This document shows, piece by piece, positions 1,259-6,899 of a stretch of DNA of 64,000 nucleotides. The DNA is from Bradyrhizobiaceae bacterium (GTDB lineage: Bacteria; Pseudomonadota; Alphaproteobacteria; Rhizobiales; Xanthobacteraceae). How positions within the stretch are numbered: position 1 is the stretch's first letter; each line of letters begins with the position of its first letter. Below the pieces are notes generated by a model, which made no database searches, was not told the DNA's origin, and saw only the letters and a program-made list of their open reading frames with translations. The position numbers were made by a program, and so were the translations under genes. The stretch covers positions 1 to 64,000 of the forward strand of contig CANKHJ010000001.1 in assembly GCA_947481635.1 (NCBI GenBank), given 5' to 3'.

Positions 1259-1499
1259 GCAGCATTCTCCGCTACCTATGTCGGTGCACGCATAAAAAGC
1301 GACATCTACGATTTATCCCCCGATACAATCAGCCGACTCAAACGGTAGGCACAACATATAGCGATTCGCTAGTCGTCGCTTGCATATGGATTGTTTGAGT
1401 GGTGGAAAACGCGGCCGACGTGTCATCGTGCTTAGTGCGTTCGGCCCTCAGCTGGTTCAACTCGACCTGATAGCGCTGGGCTGGGGCCGTCTAAAGAAC
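1259..1499. other. Spacer between the ImmA-like gene and nrdJ
   Basis: I see no supported gene here. On the minus strand a stretch of about 50 codons is open (roughly 1310-1480), but it begins right after a stop codon, has no good start and matches nothing I recognise. It may be decayed coding DNA. Base composition is mixed and shifts to normal high GC towards nrdJ, so the edge of a transferred segment probably lies here. Confidence 0.4.
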
Positions 1500-1523
1500 A
1501 AAGGCCGGGTTACCCCGGCCTTT
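1500..1523 (-). terminator. Rho-independent terminator of nrdJ
   Basis: A 10-bp perfect stem (AAAGGCCGGG with CCCGGCCTTT) closes a 4-base loop. On the minus strand it is followed by the T-rich run TTTGTTCTTTAG minus its first bases. It lies about 22 bp beyond the nrdJ stop codon, as expected for an intrinsic terminator. Confidence 0.85.
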
Positions 1524-1545
1524 GGCTGGTTCGATTGAACTAAGA

Positions 1546-4500
1546 TTACGAACACCCCGTCGTGCTGCCGCACGTGTCGCACTTCATGCAGGTGCCGTTG
1601 CGCACCAAAGTGAAATTGGCGCATTCGCCGCACATCTCGCCTTCGTAGCCCTTGGCCTTGGCTTCCTTGCGGCGCTCATTTGCGAGCGCGCGCGGATCGG
1701 CTTTGGCTTCGACATATTCCTCGGGCTGCGCCCAGGGGAGACGCTCGAGCTTCTCGGTCGGCGAGAGCTTGGCTTCCGGCTCGGACTTGAGCGCGGTGGC
1801 GCCGAACGCAGTCACATTCGAGCCGCTGCTGCGGGCTTCGCTGACTTGCGGGCCGGCGCCGCCACCCTGCATCACCTGGAGCTTGTCGGTGCGCGAGCGG
1901 GTGAGGCCCTTCGAGAGATAGCGCTGCGAGCCCTCGGCCGGCTCGCGGCCTTCGGATTCGCCTTTGCCGAGCGCGTCGAACGAGCCTTCGCTCGGGTCGA
2001 CATGGGCGAGGTCGAAGCGTTCCATGTAAGAGATCGCGAGTTCACGGAACACGTAGTCGAGGATCGAGGTCGCGTATTTGATGGTCTCGTTGCCCTGCAC
2101 CGGACCCTGCGGCTCGAACCGCGTGAAGGTGAAGGCGTCGACATATTCGTCGAGCGGCACGCCGTATTGCAGCCCGAGCGAGATCGCGATCGCGAAGTTG
2201 TTGAGGAGCGAGCGGAGCGCCGCGCCTTCCTTGTGCATGTCGATGAAAATCTCGCCGAGCCGGCCGTCGTCATATTCGCCGGTGCGCAGATAGACCTTGT
2301 GGCCGCCGACCACCGCCTTCTGGGTATAACCCTTGCGGCGGCCGGGAAGCTTTTCGCGCTCGCGCATCACCACGATGCGCTCCACCACCTTCTCGGTGAT
2401 GCGCTCGGCCAAGGCCGCGACGCGCGAGGCCTGCGGCCGGTCGATGAAGGTCTCGACAGCATCCATGTCCTCATCGTCCTCGTCGGCGATGAGCTGCGAG
2501 TTCAGCGGCTGCGACAGCTTCGAGCCATCGCGGTAGAGCGCGTTGGCCTTGAGCGCGAGCTTCCAGGAGAGGAGGTAGGCGGACTTGCAATCCTCCACGG
2601 TCGCGTCATTCGGCATGTTGATGGTCTTGGAGATCGCCCCCGAGATGAAGGGCTGCGCCGCCGCCATCATGCGGATATGGCTCTCGACCGAGAGGAAGCG
2701 CTTGCCGATCTTGCCGCACGGGTTGGCGCAATCGAATACCGAATAATGCTCGGCCTTGAGATGCGGCGCGCCTTCCACGGTCATCGCGCCGCAGACATGG
2801 ATGTTAGCGGCTTCGATTTCGCGCTTGGTGAAGCCGAGATGCGCCAACAGGTCGAAGGAGGAGGCATTCAGCGTCTCGGCCGGGATGCCCAGCGTCTTGA
2901 CGCAATATTCCTCGCCCAGCGTCCACTTGTTGAACACGAACTTGATGTCGAACGCGGTCGGCAGCGCCTGCTCGATCTTTTCGATCGCCTCTGGCGTGAA
3001 GCCCTTCTGCTTCAGCGTGGTGTGGTTGATCGCGGGCGCCTGAGCCAGCGTGCCGTGGCCGAGCGCATAGACCTCGATCTCGGCAATGTCCGCGACGCTG
3101 TAGCCAAGGACGCGCAAGGCTTCCGGCACTGCGCGGTTGATGATCTTCCAATAGCCGCCGCCGGCGAGCTTCTTGAACTTGACCAGCGCGAAGTCCGGCT
3201 CGATGCCGGTGGTGTCGCAATCCATCACCAGGCCGATCGTGCCGGTCGGCGCGATCACCGAGGCCTGCGCGTTGCGATAGCCATGCTCCTCGCCGAGCGC
3301 GAGCGCGCGGTCCCACGCCTTGGTGGCGTGCGCGATCAGTTCCGGATAATTGCCGACCGCCGCAAGGCAGGCCTTGTGATCGAGCGGCACCGGCGGCTGC
3401 GCCAGCTTGTCATAGCCGGTGCGCTCGCCATGCGCGGCGCGGCGATGGTTGCGGATCACGCGCAGCATGTGCTCGCGGTTCTTCTTGTAGCCCGGGAAGG
3501 TCCCGAGCCGCGACGCCATCTCGGCCGATGTGGCGTAGGACACGCCGGTCATGATCGCGGTGAGCGCCCCGCAGATCGCGCGGCCGGCGTCCGAGTCATA
3601 CGCGATGCCGGACGACATCAGCAGGCCGCCGACATTGGCATAGCCAAGGCCGAGCGTGCGGTATTCATACGAGAGTTGCGCGATTTCCTTGGAGGGGAAT
3701 TGCGCCATCATCACCGAGATTTCGAGCACCACGGTCCAAAGCCGCACAGCGTGCTCATAGCCCTCGATGTCGAAAGTGCCGGCTTGGCGCGTCGAACCTG
3801 CGGCCGCCGCGAGCGAGGAGGGCGTGTAGAAGGCGAGCAGGTTCATCGACGCGAGATTGCAGGCGGTATCGTCGAGGAACATGTATTCCGAGCACGGATT
3901 GCTGCCGCGGATCGGACCCGATGCCGGGCAGGTGTGCCAGTCATTCACGGTGGTGTGGTATTGCAGGCCCGGATCGGCGGACGCCCAGGCGGCGTGGCCG
4001 ATCTTCTCCCACAAGTCCGTGGCCTTGTAGGTCTTGGCGATCTTCTTGCTGGTGCGCCAGTGGGTGTCCCAGTTCGCATCCGACTCGACGGCTTTCAGGA
4101 ACTCGTCGTTGACGCGCACCGAGTTGTTCGAGTTCTGGCCCGATACCGTGAGATAGGCGTCGCTGTCCCAATCGGTGTCGTAGATCGGGAAGTCGATGTC
4201 GGTATAGCCCTGCTTGGCGAACTGCATCACGCGCTTGATGTAGTTGTCCGGCACGGCGTTGCGGCGCGCCGCCTTGATCTCGCGGCGCAGCACCGGGTTC
4301 TTGTCCGGATCGAAGCAATCGTCGCCCGAGCCCTCGCAATTCACGCAGGCGCGCATGATCGCCTTGAGGTGGCGCTGGTTGATCTTCGAGCCGGTCACCA
4401 AGGCGGCGACCTTCTGCTCTTCGATCACCTTCCAGTCGATGAATTTCTCGATGTCGGGATGATCGACGTCGACGATCACCATCTTCGCCGCGCGGCGCGT

Positions 4501-5319
4501 GGTGCCGCCCGACTTGATCGCGCCCGCAGCGCGGTCGCCGATCTTGAGGAAGCTCATCAGGCCGGACGAGCGGCCGCCGCCGGAGAGCTTCTCGCCATCG
4601 CCGCGCAGGTTCGAGAAGTTGGTGCCGGTGCCGGAGCCGTATTTGAACAGCCGCGCCTCGCGCACCCACAGGTCCATGATGCCGCCCTCATTGACGAGGT
4701 CGTCACCGATCGACTGGATGAAGCAGGCATGCGGCTGCGGATGCTCATAGGCCGACTTGGAGCGCGCCACCTTGCCGGTCTTGAAGTCGACGAAATAATG
4801 GCCCTGGCTCGGGCCGTCGATGCCATAAGCCCAATGCAGGCCGGTGTTGAACCATTGCGGCGAGTTCGGCGCCGACATCTGCTTCGCCAGCATATAGACA
4901 TGCTCGTCGAAGAAAGCGCGCGCATCGGCCTCGCTGTCGAAATAGCCGCCCTTCCAGCCCCAATAGGTCCAGGTGCCGGCCAGCCGCTCGAACACCTGCT
5001 TCGAGGAGGTCTCACCGATATTGCGTTCCTTCTCCGGCAGGGCCGCAAGCGCCTGCTCGTCGGGCACCGAACGCCACAGCCAGGAGGGGATGGTGGATTC
5101 TTCGAATTTCTTCAGCCGCGCTGGTAGTCCAGCCTTGCGGAAATATTTCTGGGCAATGACGTCGGCGGCAACCTGCGACCACGCGGTGGGGACCTCGACA
5201 TTCTCAGCCTTGAACACCACCGAGCCGTCAGGATTCCTGATCTCGCTGGTGGTCAGGCGGAATTCGATGTCCGCGTAAGGTGACTGGCCTTCGGTGGTAA
5301 AGCGCCGCTCAATCCGCAT
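1546..5319 (-). CDS. nrdJ: Vitamin B12-dependent ribonucleotide reductase (class II)
   Basis: A 1257-residue class II ribonucleotide reductase that converts ribonucleotides to deoxyribonucleotides using adenosylcobalamin, with or without oxygen. The length fits the large alphaproteobacterial NrdJ form. Visible marks are the N-terminal catalytic barrel region ([37 protein letters not shown] in the middle, characteristic of the active-site cysteine strand), and a cysteine-rich C-terminus ([15 protein letters not shown]) that probably carries the redox-active or zinc-binding cysteines. The chosen ATG follows AGGGGC at a suitable distance; an upstream ATG seven bases earlier is out of frame. The gene stands alone, with a terminator behind it and an unusual hairpin-rich region ahead of it. 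Confidence 0.95.
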
Positions 5320-5390
5320 CGTTCATGCCCCTTTTTGGCCGACGGCCGCAGGGAAACGTCCCCCGCATATATAAGCCCTCGACTCATGTT

Positions 5391-5640
5391 CCGCGAACGC
5401 GGCTGGCCTCAGCCGCGCCCATGCTTCCGTCAGTTCCGTTTCGCCTCGGTCCGGGACTGCGTGGCCCCAGCTCCTGTTGCGACGCCCCGGGGACCGCTCT
5501 CCGTCCCCGTGACACGAGTCCACGCATGCTGAGCCGGATCCTGGCTCGGCGGCGGGGTCGCACCCTTCCTGGGAGAGCGTCCGGGCTGACTGGAAACAAC
5601 CGCGCCGAACGATCTGAAGGCTAGGGGGAGCCCTGCCGTC
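5391..5640 (-). promoter_or_regulatory. Hairpin-rich upstream region (possible leader RNA) of nrdJ
   Basis: About 250 bp directly upstream of nrdJ has no credible gene but several inverted repeats: 5399-5405/5410-5416 (7 bp), 5489-5494/5503-5508 (GGGGAC/GTCCCC), 5531-5535/5543-5547 (GAGCC/GGCTC), and a long-range pair 5458-5464/5520-5526 (TGCGTGG/CCACGCA) that encloses the GGGGAC hairpin. This nesting suggests a folded RNA read towards nrdJ. It has fragments that recall a cobalamin riboswitch (GGAA-GGGTGCGACCCC, GCAAC) but not the B12 box in the right place, so I do not call it one. It could also be an independent small RNA. Confidence 0.4.
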
Positions 5641-5937
5641 CGTCAAGCTGTAGGGGAAAGGATTTAACGAACCAACTACATGTGGGGAGAGCGGGGAAAG
5701 AATCACTGGGGGAGGCCAGAAGTATCGATGATTCCAGGCTTCCGTAAAAGCCTGTGGAGGTAACGGCTCGGACACAAAACCGTCGTCAAGCGAGAAATTT
5801 GAGACCCGCCATTGCAATTTGAGACCGGAGCGGACCCTGGCACCTCTCCGCTGGGCGGAAACAGGCCTGGATTGCAACTTACCGACGTAGAACCCGGCCT
5901 CCGACCGACCAGCGGTCGAAGAATCAGACGAGAATTA
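5641..5937. repeat. Gene-free spacer with short direct repeats, possible IS-end remnant
   Basis: No supported gene. The 11-mer AATTTGAGACC occurs twice with a 20-bp period, at 5796-5806 and 5816-5826. Short tandem motifs of this sort occur at the ends of IS21-family elements, but no istA/istB coding sequence is present, so this is at most a solitary remnant. That origin is a guess. Confidence 0.25.
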
Positions 5938-5979
5938 CGGGGACATTGATTACCCACATATTTGGGGCGTCCCCGTTTT
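5938..5979 (+). terminator. CGGGGAC/GTCCCCG inverted repeat, terminator-like
   Basis: A 7-bp perfect stem (5938-5944 with 5969-5975) flanks a 24-base loop and is followed by TTTT on the plus strand. It may be a weak terminator or a REP-like palindrome associated with RAYT-type mobile elements; the loop is long for a terminator. It lies 38 bp beyond the end of the sigma factor gene, which runs on the opposite strand. Confidence 0.3.
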
Positions 5980-6017
5980 CCCCAATGTCACCGCGGCGCA
6001 CTGGCAGGCCGGGGCTC

Positions 6018-6899
6018 TCAGCCCAGCAGCTCCAGCAATGCGCCCTCCATGGCGTAGGGTGCATAGCGGAAATCCCGGATGCTGATCAGCCCGTCCGGCG
6101 TCCAGTCCAGCACCACCAGATAGGCCGCGGTCGCCGGATCCTGCACCAGCGCTGCGGGACGCCCTTCCAGCATTGCCGGCGTGAAGCGCCAGGTCGGGTT
6201 CTTGTCGTAATTGGTGAAATAGGCGCCGACCTGTTTGCGGCCACGCAGGCGGAGCCGCGCGACGAGATCGAGCCGGACATCATCCGCCAGCATGTCGCGG
6301 ACTGCATCGAAGTCGCGCGCATTGAAGCGATCGACGTAGGAGACGAGCCGCGCGCGATCGGCCGCCGCGAGCGGAGCCGGCCGATCACGGTCTGGCGCGA
6401 GGGCCAATTCGCGTAAGCGCGCGCGGCCGCGATGCAGCGCGGCCTTGATCGCGGGGATCGTGGTTCCGGTGGCGTCGCCGATCTCCTCCAGCGAATAACC
6501 CAGCACGTCGCTCAGGATCACGCTGCTGCGCTGCGCCACCGGCAGATGCATGAAGGTGCCCAGGCTTGCGGCGACCGCCTGGCGCGCGTCGGCGGCGTCG
6601 TCCGGGTCGGCGATCATGTCCGGATCCTTATCGGTGAGCGCGGCGGCGATGCGCGCGCGGCGGCGCAGGAAATCCAGCGCCGCATTGTGCGCGATGCGAA
6701 ACAGCCAGCCTTCCGGATTGGCGATCGCGCCGGATTGCGGGAAGGCTTCGATCGCCTTGATCAAGGCGTCCTGCAGCACGTCTTCGCCGTCGATCACCGA
6801 GCCGGTCATGCGCGCGCAATAGCGATGCAGCTTCGGCCGCAGTTCGGCGAGCAGCCGCTCGAAAGTCGCGCGGGCGTCCGGATTTCCGACCTCGCTCAT
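6018..6899 (-). CDS. ECF sigma factor with C-terminal SnoaL-like domain
   Basis: A 293-residue extracytoplasmic-function sigma-70 factor that would direct RNA polymerase to a specific promoter set. Region 2 is at about residues 10-80 (DVLQDALIKAIEAF; NPEGWLFRIAHNAALDFLRR) and region 4 at about 110-165 (LSDVLGYSLEEIGDATG, with the helix-turn-helix then AALHRGRARLRE). The last 110 residues (VDRFNARDFDAVRDMLADDV onward) look like a SnoaL/NTF2-type domain, as in ECF groups whose fused tail replaces a separate anti-sigma factor. The small gene 58 bp upstream on the same strand is probably co-transcribed. No anti-sigma gene is nearby. The target promoters are unknown. Confidence 0.87.
   Translation of the reverse strand: MSEVGNPDARATFERLLAELRPKLHRYCARMTGSVIDGEDVLQDALIKAIEAFPQSGAIANPEGWLFRIAHNAALDFLRRRARIAAALTDKDPDMIADPDDAADARQAVAASLGTFMHLPVAQRSSVILSDVLGYSLEEIGDATGTTIPAIKAALHRGRARLRELALAPDRDRPAPLAAADRARLVSYVDRFNARDFDAVRDMLADDVRLDLVARLRLRGRKQVGAYFTNYDKNPTWRFTPAMLEGRPAALVQDPATAAYLVVLDWTPDGLISIRDFRYAPYAMEGALLELLG

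Follow-up and report, generated by a model that had tools for sequence, protein, structure and literature searches.

A conserved candidate 5' leader RNA upstream of the class II ribonucleotide reductase gene nrdJ in Xanthobacteraceae

The nrdJ locus and its upstream region

The window analysed here, a stretch of 64,000 nucleotides from a Bradyrhizobiaceae bacterium, carries the gene nrdJ. Its product matches the NCBIfam equivalog model NF005736 (vitamin B12-dependent ribonucleotide reductase) with 2279.1 bits, against a cut-off of 1737; the identity of nrdJ is certain, and the gene needs B12, as the initial annotation had said. Because nrdJ lies on the minus strand, the RNA to be considered is that of the minus strand, read from 5611 to 5320 (Table 1). 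Farther upstream on the same strand lies a gene for an ECF-type sigma-70 factor (6018-6899); it passes the cut-off of the TIGR02937 superfamily model and falls short of the cut-offs of two nearer models, SigX5 and PRK08241. Between this gene and the nrdJ promoter there is an inverted repeat (5939-5989, GGGGACATTG ... CCCCAATGTC around the palindrome CCCACATATTTGGGG) that looks like a dispersed repeat or a further operator.

Table 1 Positions in the window of nrdJ, its predicted leader and the putative promoter elements
Feature	Position	Strand	Basis
nrdJ, adenosylcobalamin-dependent (class II) ribonucleotide reductase, 1257 aa	1546..5319	-	open reading frame and NCBIfam equivalog NF005736
Shine-Dalgarno-like AGGGG, 8 nt before ATG	5328..5332	-	sequence
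Predicted 5' leader of nrdJ mRNA, ~292 nt	5320..5611	-	start placed from the promoter, directly before the first helix
Helix P8, outer: CGA.GGC 5381-5375 / GCC.TCG 5346-5340	5340..5381	-	window assignment by eye
Helix P8, inner: GCGGGGGA 5366-5359 / TTCCCTGC 5355-5348		-	sequence; P8 end 7 nt before ribosome-binding site
Helix P7: CGCGGCTG / CAGCCGCG	5398..5417	-	inverted repeat; R2 match; covariation in relatives
P4 hairpin (probable): CTGGG 5470-5466 / CCCGG 5455-5451	5451..5470	-	position by eye against relatives
TGCGACCCC 5562-5554 / GGCGTCGCA 5486-5478	5478..5562	-	inverted repeat, present in minimum-energy fold
Small hairpin P2: CCC 5573-5571 / GGG 5565-5563	5563..5573	-	window assignment by eye
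Helix P1, predicted mRNA 5' end: GTTCGG 5610-5605 / CCGGAC 5584-5579	5579..5610	-	covariation
R1 covariance-model match, 5' domain	5522..5612	-	32.2 bits
-10 element TAGCCT, 17-bp spacer	5618..5623	-	sequence and family conservation
-35 element TTGACG	5641..5646	-	family conservation of TTGAC and -10-like site
Putative NrdR box 2, CTACAGCTTG, overlaps -35, 32 bp from box 1	5644..5653	-	sequence
Putative NrdR box 1, core CCACATGTAG	5676..5685	-	sequence; spacing to box 2 in family

The promoter-like site is conserved at the level of sequence. TTGAC together with a -10-like site was found in 87 of 90 upstream regions of the family (the window's included) and in 53 of 900 shuffles; in the family it lies a median of 345 nt before the start codon. 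Note that a generic sigma-70 scan of positions 5200-6100 called no promoter because TAGCCT matches TATAAT at 3 of 6 letters and the scan wants 4 of 6. Both putative NrdR boxes are 10-bp sites that resemble the NrdR box motif. Of 87 upstream regions from the family, again with the window included, 76 have a site like box 1 at 31 or 32 bp from box 2 (other distances gave a mean of 1.4), and 75 have the CTA....TTG of box 2. NrdR is a repressor that senses nucleotide state, and its gene is encoded in the window's genome. The two sites, spaced 31 or 32 bp apart and overlapping the -35 element in a genome that contains NrdR, resemble NrdR operators; such boxes would, however, act at the level of DNA and upstream of the leader, and leave the conservation of structure in the transcribed part unexplained. 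At nine loci from other Rhizobiales families, a palindrome that resembles an NrdR box (for example AACACTATATTTAGTGTT) is located between a distal TTGAC promoter-like site and nrdJ, approximately 150-250 nt from the gene, and the promoter layout seems to have shifted between Rhizobiales families.

The initial annotation had drawn attention to at least four inverted repeats in positions 5391-5640, and had proposed that they nest around a GGGGAC hairpin to form a possible leader. This region does contain 4 exact inverted pairs, each 7 nt or longer and separated by loops of 3-80 nt, but at a G+C content of 70.8% that number is near chance: shuffles that keep dinucleotides gave 1.75 ± 1.34 pairs, and 101 of 1000 gave at least 4. 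The fold-energy z of the same region is -1.29 on the plus strand and -0.57 on the minus strand, and that of 5320-5640 on the minus strand is -1.65. With repeats near chance and unremarkable fold energies, the window by itself is weak evidence for a leader. The proposed nesting, in which TGCGTGG 5458-5464 / CCACGCA 5520-5526 encloses CGGGGAC 5488-5494 / GTCCCCG 5503-5509, with both repeats present at the positions given, found no support as leader anatomy. The long-range pair does not appear in the minus-strand minimum-energy fold, and comparative support for it is lacking because the middle of the window's leader (~5440-5560) cannot be aligned to relatives. A different repeat from the same set, 5398-5405/5410-5417, does correspond to a conserved, covarying helix (P7). 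The boundaries also had to be moved, since the predicted leader takes in 5320-5390 as well and 5612-5640 is promoter.

Homology and covariation of the leader within the family

The first 200 aa of NrdJ have counterparts in 139 of the 149 genomes of the family (Xanthobacteraceae), and 90 upstream stretches, the window's among them, were compared. Twenty-nine of these relatives, with the window excluded, served as seeds for R1, a covariance model of the 5' domain of the leader. R1 nevertheless finds the window's leader (E 8.4e-4 in 212 kb searched), and within the window's own genome the leader was the sole match at E ≤ 1 (E 0.0195). The match leans mainly on P1 and P2, the window's copy being divergent. 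At E ≤ 0.1, R1 returned 74 matches from 73 of the 149 family genomes. Seventy-two of the 74 precede nrdJ by 251-457 nt on the nrdJ strand, and the other two are weak (E 0.033 and 0.059). The element therefore occupies a conserved position before one gene, and it is the promoter that points to its transcription.

This placement bears on the suggestion, raised by the initial annotation, that the 5' part is a separate small RNA to which nrdJ is a bystander. P1 does begin at the promoter, as such an RNA would. The conserved helices, however, run on to the start codon, no terminator-like site was found in the window's leader region, and 72 of 74 R1 matches are joined to nrdJ, all of which makes a separate small RNA very unlikely.

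R1 detects the element in roughly half the Xanthobacteraceae genomes (73 of 149), though nrdJ is present in 139 of them. Leaders of some members are much shorter, at 184-217 nt. Six loci of the family have nrdJ leaders of 184-190 nt in which the promoter-like site is kept, and none of the six has an R1 match in place. With about half of the family unmatched and with such short leaders, either the element has a patchy distribution or R1 is too narrow to cover it. For the 3' domain, model R2 was seeded with 14 relatives; it matched the window at 5423-5317 with 9.4 bits (E 0.006 in a search of 501 bases with filters off), and the window's leader was missing from the matches of a larger search, run with default filters. 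Across the class, R1 gave no match at E ≤ 0.01 in any of 190 genomes, a cut that the window's own genome likewise fails. A refined model that includes the window, R3, matched 15 of 297 genomes of the order at E ≤ 0.05, 10 of them in Xanthobacteraceae and 5 in one other family. (A search at the DNA level through 61 genomes produced one outside match, 38 bases at 84% identity, inside an unrelated reading frame; it was rejected as chance.)

In the family the leader has a common order: P1, small P2, P3 with its closing helix P3', P4 flanked by A-runs, P7, P8 and the Shine-Dalgarno sequence (15 of 87 leaders were set aside in one of the comparisons behind it). P4 and two further helices (P5, P6), all putative, were recognised by eye in some of the relatives. 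The conserved strands of P1 read GTTCGGCG/CGCCGGAC. In 57 sequences aligned to R1, 92.1% of P1 cells are paired, with double-sided changes in 4 of its 8 pairs, and 75.9% of P2 cells are paired. P7 is 97-100% paired in 41 sequences from relatives, with 5 pair types at one position. The Shine-Dalgarno sequence reads GGGGC in 54 of 78 leaders and GGGG in 7 more. In the window, the pairing at 5478..5562, which we likened by eye to the GCGAC/GTCGC of relatives, is the probable counterpart of the domain-closing helix P3'.

The initial annotation had proposed a search for covarying base pairs among homologous upstream regions, the lack of which would have told against a leader; such pairs were found, the signal being weaker or absent on alignments made from sequence only. 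The 57 sequences aligned to R1, which include the window's and came from 61 chosen sources, show double-sided changes in 18 of 23 pairs, a number reached by 1 of 500 shuffles, and 88 double-changed cells compared to 33.8 ± 5.6 in shuffles (0 of 500). Moreover, 83.2% of cells are paired, and the covariation score is 0.258; when partners are slid, these values drop to 36-49% and to no more than 0.083. None of the 500 shuffles equalled the alignment in four of the five measures, and one did so in the fifth. Note that this alignment, like those used below with the tree-based null, was fitted to the structure. In 14 3' ends aligned without regard to structure, P7 and P8 together have 12 double-changed cells compared to 3.8 (0 of 500 shuffles) and 5 pairs with a double change compared to 2.3 (21 of 500), P7 is 100% paired, and pair types are no more numerous than in shuffles (312 of 500).

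We also used a phylogenetic null of our own making, modelled on the idea behind R-scape. For the 5' domain the summed score was 280.8, compared to 13.1 ± 30.3 with a maximum of 90.4 in 200 simulated sets. For the 3' domain it was 116.4, compared to 10.5 ± 19.7 with a maximum of 76.9 in 60. The single pairs that pass this null are few: 119-222 (E 0.021), 12-69 in P7 (E 0.002) and 108-182 in P8 (E 0.027). (The 5' set comprised 68 sequences, from 85 R1 matches less 15 that were off-place and 2 duplicates, and the 3' set 41, from 58 R2 matches less 15 that were off-place or fragments and 2 duplicates. Pair 124-217, with 44% standard pairs, was added after the first run on the 5' domain and contributes 22.4 of the summed 280.8.)

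Other alignments gave no such signal. The R1 seed alignment has 5 double-changed pairs, the same as shuffles (5.0), and an all-pairs analysis of MAFFT alignments of 72 and of 27 leaders returned nothing significant, because those alignments are too divergent. A structure-blind pair scan of 24 leaders found 305 covarying pairs, compared to 254-293 in 20 row permutations, with helices no more numerous. Leaders fold better than their shuffles, with a mean z of -1.47 (n = 63), when compared to -0.84 for the antisense strand (Wilcoxon p 1.4e-5) and -0.53 for coding starts (n = 25); the folding set was made up of 63 of 87 leaders, those of 240-360 nt without duplicates, and the first 300 nt were folded. 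That the structure is a chance product of high G+C content would fit the near-chance repeats and the weak fold energy of the window, but R1 homology, covariation and the placement of 72 of 74 matches before nrdJ leave this explanation scarcely credible.

Comparison with known RNA classes

No family of Rfam 15 scored above chance at the window's leader or at the leaders of 19 relatives, and the microRNA, lncRNA and sRNA models that matched under permissive settings were far below their cut-offs and were rejected. Together with the promoter-like site, the R1 homology and the covariation, this result agrees with the earlier suggestion of a leader RNA before nrdJ, perhaps of a new class. Searches with the Rfam cobalamin and nrdJ RNA models, which the initial annotation had advised, returned no match at the window's leader. 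The cobalamin riboswitch model RF00174 (cut-off 31.5 bits) has no match at its gathering threshold in the window, none at E ≤ 10 over 5200-5800 and none at E ≤ 1 at the nrdJ loci of 19 relatives; it does detect riboswitches elsewhere in the window's genome, with 124.2 and 98 bits. Thus, although a long 5' leader tied to B12 metabolism is what the nrdJ leader has in common with cobalamin riboswitches, the earlier reading that its parts are not arranged like one is upheld.

The nrdJ RNA model RF03034 likewise describes a conserved RNA before nrdJ and is listed upstream of that gene in Streptomyces lividans (PMC8079986). This model of 80 positions (cut-off 40.3 bits) had no match above its cut-off in 41 genomes, the window's included, nor in 14 control genomes, which therefore supply no positive control. 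It is also absent from the matches at E ≤ 10 over 5200-5800, and its single weak match in the window's genome lies on another contig (C334), away from nrdJ. The elements of Corbino et al. 2005, which the leader resembles in being structured intergenic RNAs of alphaproteobacteria, reportedly belong to metA, suhB, ybhL, speF and serC and thus differ in that nrdJ is not among them. Five alphaproteobacterial elements, one of them SAM-II, are described as structured and intergenic (PMC1273637). At locus L014 (genome G020) a ROSE RNA thermometer scores 57.3 bits, over its cut-off, at 3003-3100, approximately 0.9 kb upstream of nrdJ; the nrdJ leader of that genome has no R1 match in place.

Among the papers listed by literature searches, none had a title or abstract that dealt with a structured leader of nrdJ in alphaproteobacteria; an earlier description, for example in supplements or subscription papers, may exist. 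The word nrdJ is absent from the main text of two RNA-discovery papers (PMC11109978, PMC8632094). Surveys of Sinorhizobium meliloti list cobalamin riboswitches, not at nrdJ (PMC2573895, PMC2245857), and the main text of a start-site paper on that species does not mention ribonucleotide reductase. A dRNA-seq paper on B. japonicum names neither nrdJ nor ribonucleotide reductase in its main text, in which the usual limit for a 5'-UTR is 200 nt (PMC4842269).

Possible modes of action and a possible link to B12 supply

We consider it probable that the 292 bases before nrdJ are a conserved cis-acting 5' leader that sets nrdJ expression once transcription is under way, most likely at translation. Transcription would start at approximately 5611 from a sigma-70-type promoter overlapped by the two NrdR boxes, at which NrdR would set the transcription of nrdJ. 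The RNA would then fold into the hairpin series P1, P2, P3/P3', P4, P7 and P8, the last ending 7 nt before the Shine-Dalgarno sequence, and the folded leader would set nrdJ translation, most likely at initiation. That helices reach the Shine-Dalgarno sequence, and that no terminator was seen, argues for an action on translation. Its effector might be a metabolite linked to ribonucleotide reduction or to B12, a protein that binds RNA, or a small RNA acting with Hfq.

No conserved helix hiding the Shine-Dalgarno sequence was found across the leaders. The sequence is predicted to be partly occluded, with a mean unpaired probability of 0.36 in 78 leaders and 0.49 in the window, and its partners vary. 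(This survey set aside four loci as well as duplicates, and two leaders have no recognisable Shine-Dalgarno sequence.) Pairing of the P1 loop (GUCCC) with the Shine-Dalgarno sequence was considered and rejected, given that partners vary in the ensembles and that 185 of 300 permutations were at least as good. A leader-peptide attenuator was rejected as well: an ATG frame of at least 8 codons occurs in 69 of 83 leaders at scattered positions, and a fully open frame in 24 of the 83 (the same four loci were set aside).

Hairpins at the 5' end of an mRNA can slow its decay, and P1 sits at the predicted end of the transcript. The hairpins might thus mainly stabilise the mRNA, as a passive 5' cap with no regulation; the covarying helices, which lie at either end of the leader and reach the Shine-Dalgarno sequence, exceed what this would need, and we think it unlikely.

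A structured leader with a protein or with Hfq and a small RNA as its effector (for example, translation activated by Hfq), or one bound by NrdJ itself, is a possibility that we hold only tentatively. In an hfq mutant of S. meliloti, NrdJ protein is reported to be 11- to 20-fold lower (the paper's figures vary between passages) and the mRNA 2- to 2.5-fold lower, so that the loss of protein exceeds that of the mRNA, and the authors take this effect to suggest translational regulation (PMC3484140). By analogy, the effect fits post-transcriptional control of nrdJ in an organism of the same order as the window's. S. meliloti is outside the family in which R1 matches, homology of its leader is an assumption, and so elaborate a conserved fold would exceed the needs of an Hfq site; regulation by the leader in Xanthobacteraceae is what we infer.

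A new riboswitch class, in which the leader would bind a small molecule (adenosylcobalamin, a dNTP or another metabolite linked to the reductase) and alter nrdJ translation, is likewise possible and somewhat doubtful. The size of the leader, its many helices with conserved joining segments and its placement before one metabolic gene are consistent with a riboswitch, as is the use of cobalamin riboswitches elsewhere in the window's genome, including before nrdAB. The association with one gene only argues against it, as does the lack of a conserved expression platform, whether a terminator-like site or a pairing of the Shine-Dalgarno sequence, among those looked for.

The B12 link of the nrdJ leader is contextual. 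On another contig of the window's genome (C21, locus L205, 1256-4640), nrdA (1495-3564) and nrdB (3546-4640) stand directly behind a 124-bit cobalamin riboswitch that ends 25 nt before the nrdA open reading frame, with nrdB following. Given this riboswitch, B12 presumably represses the B12-independent enzyme, and the class I reductase nrdAB of the window's genome looks B12-repressed, judging from sequence. The class I beta subunit (NrdB) is below cut-off in 104 of the 149 family genomes. R1 matches in place were found in 30 of the 44 nrdJ genomes with NrdB and in 42 of the 95 without (Fisher p 0.011, with relatedness and seed choice ignored). The idea that the leader is confined to genomes in which nrdJ stands alone finds no support in these counts; it is somewhat commoner alongside NrdB, a bias that also favours a riboswitch. 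The choice of enzyme by B12 level cannot be its sole purpose, since the leader is present in 42 genomes with no NrdB detected. That an approximately 300-nt riboswitch senses a metabolite of ribonucleotide reduction or of B12 and shifts nrdJ translation, beside an nrdAB governed by a cobalamin riboswitch in the window's genome, is a combination that we regard as rather doubtful.

Preferring, as before, a leader that acts most likely on translation, we note what its presence would mean for the family. The leader, conserved and absent from Rfam 15, is an orphan-RNA candidate tied to one gene. As no class I beta subunit was detected in 104 of 149 genomes, control of nrdJ in those organisms is probably control of the supply of DNA precursors. 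In genomes that have both enzymes, the nrdJ leader set against a riboswitch-preceded nrdAB makes it testable how the work of ribonucleotide reduction is divided according to B12 supply.
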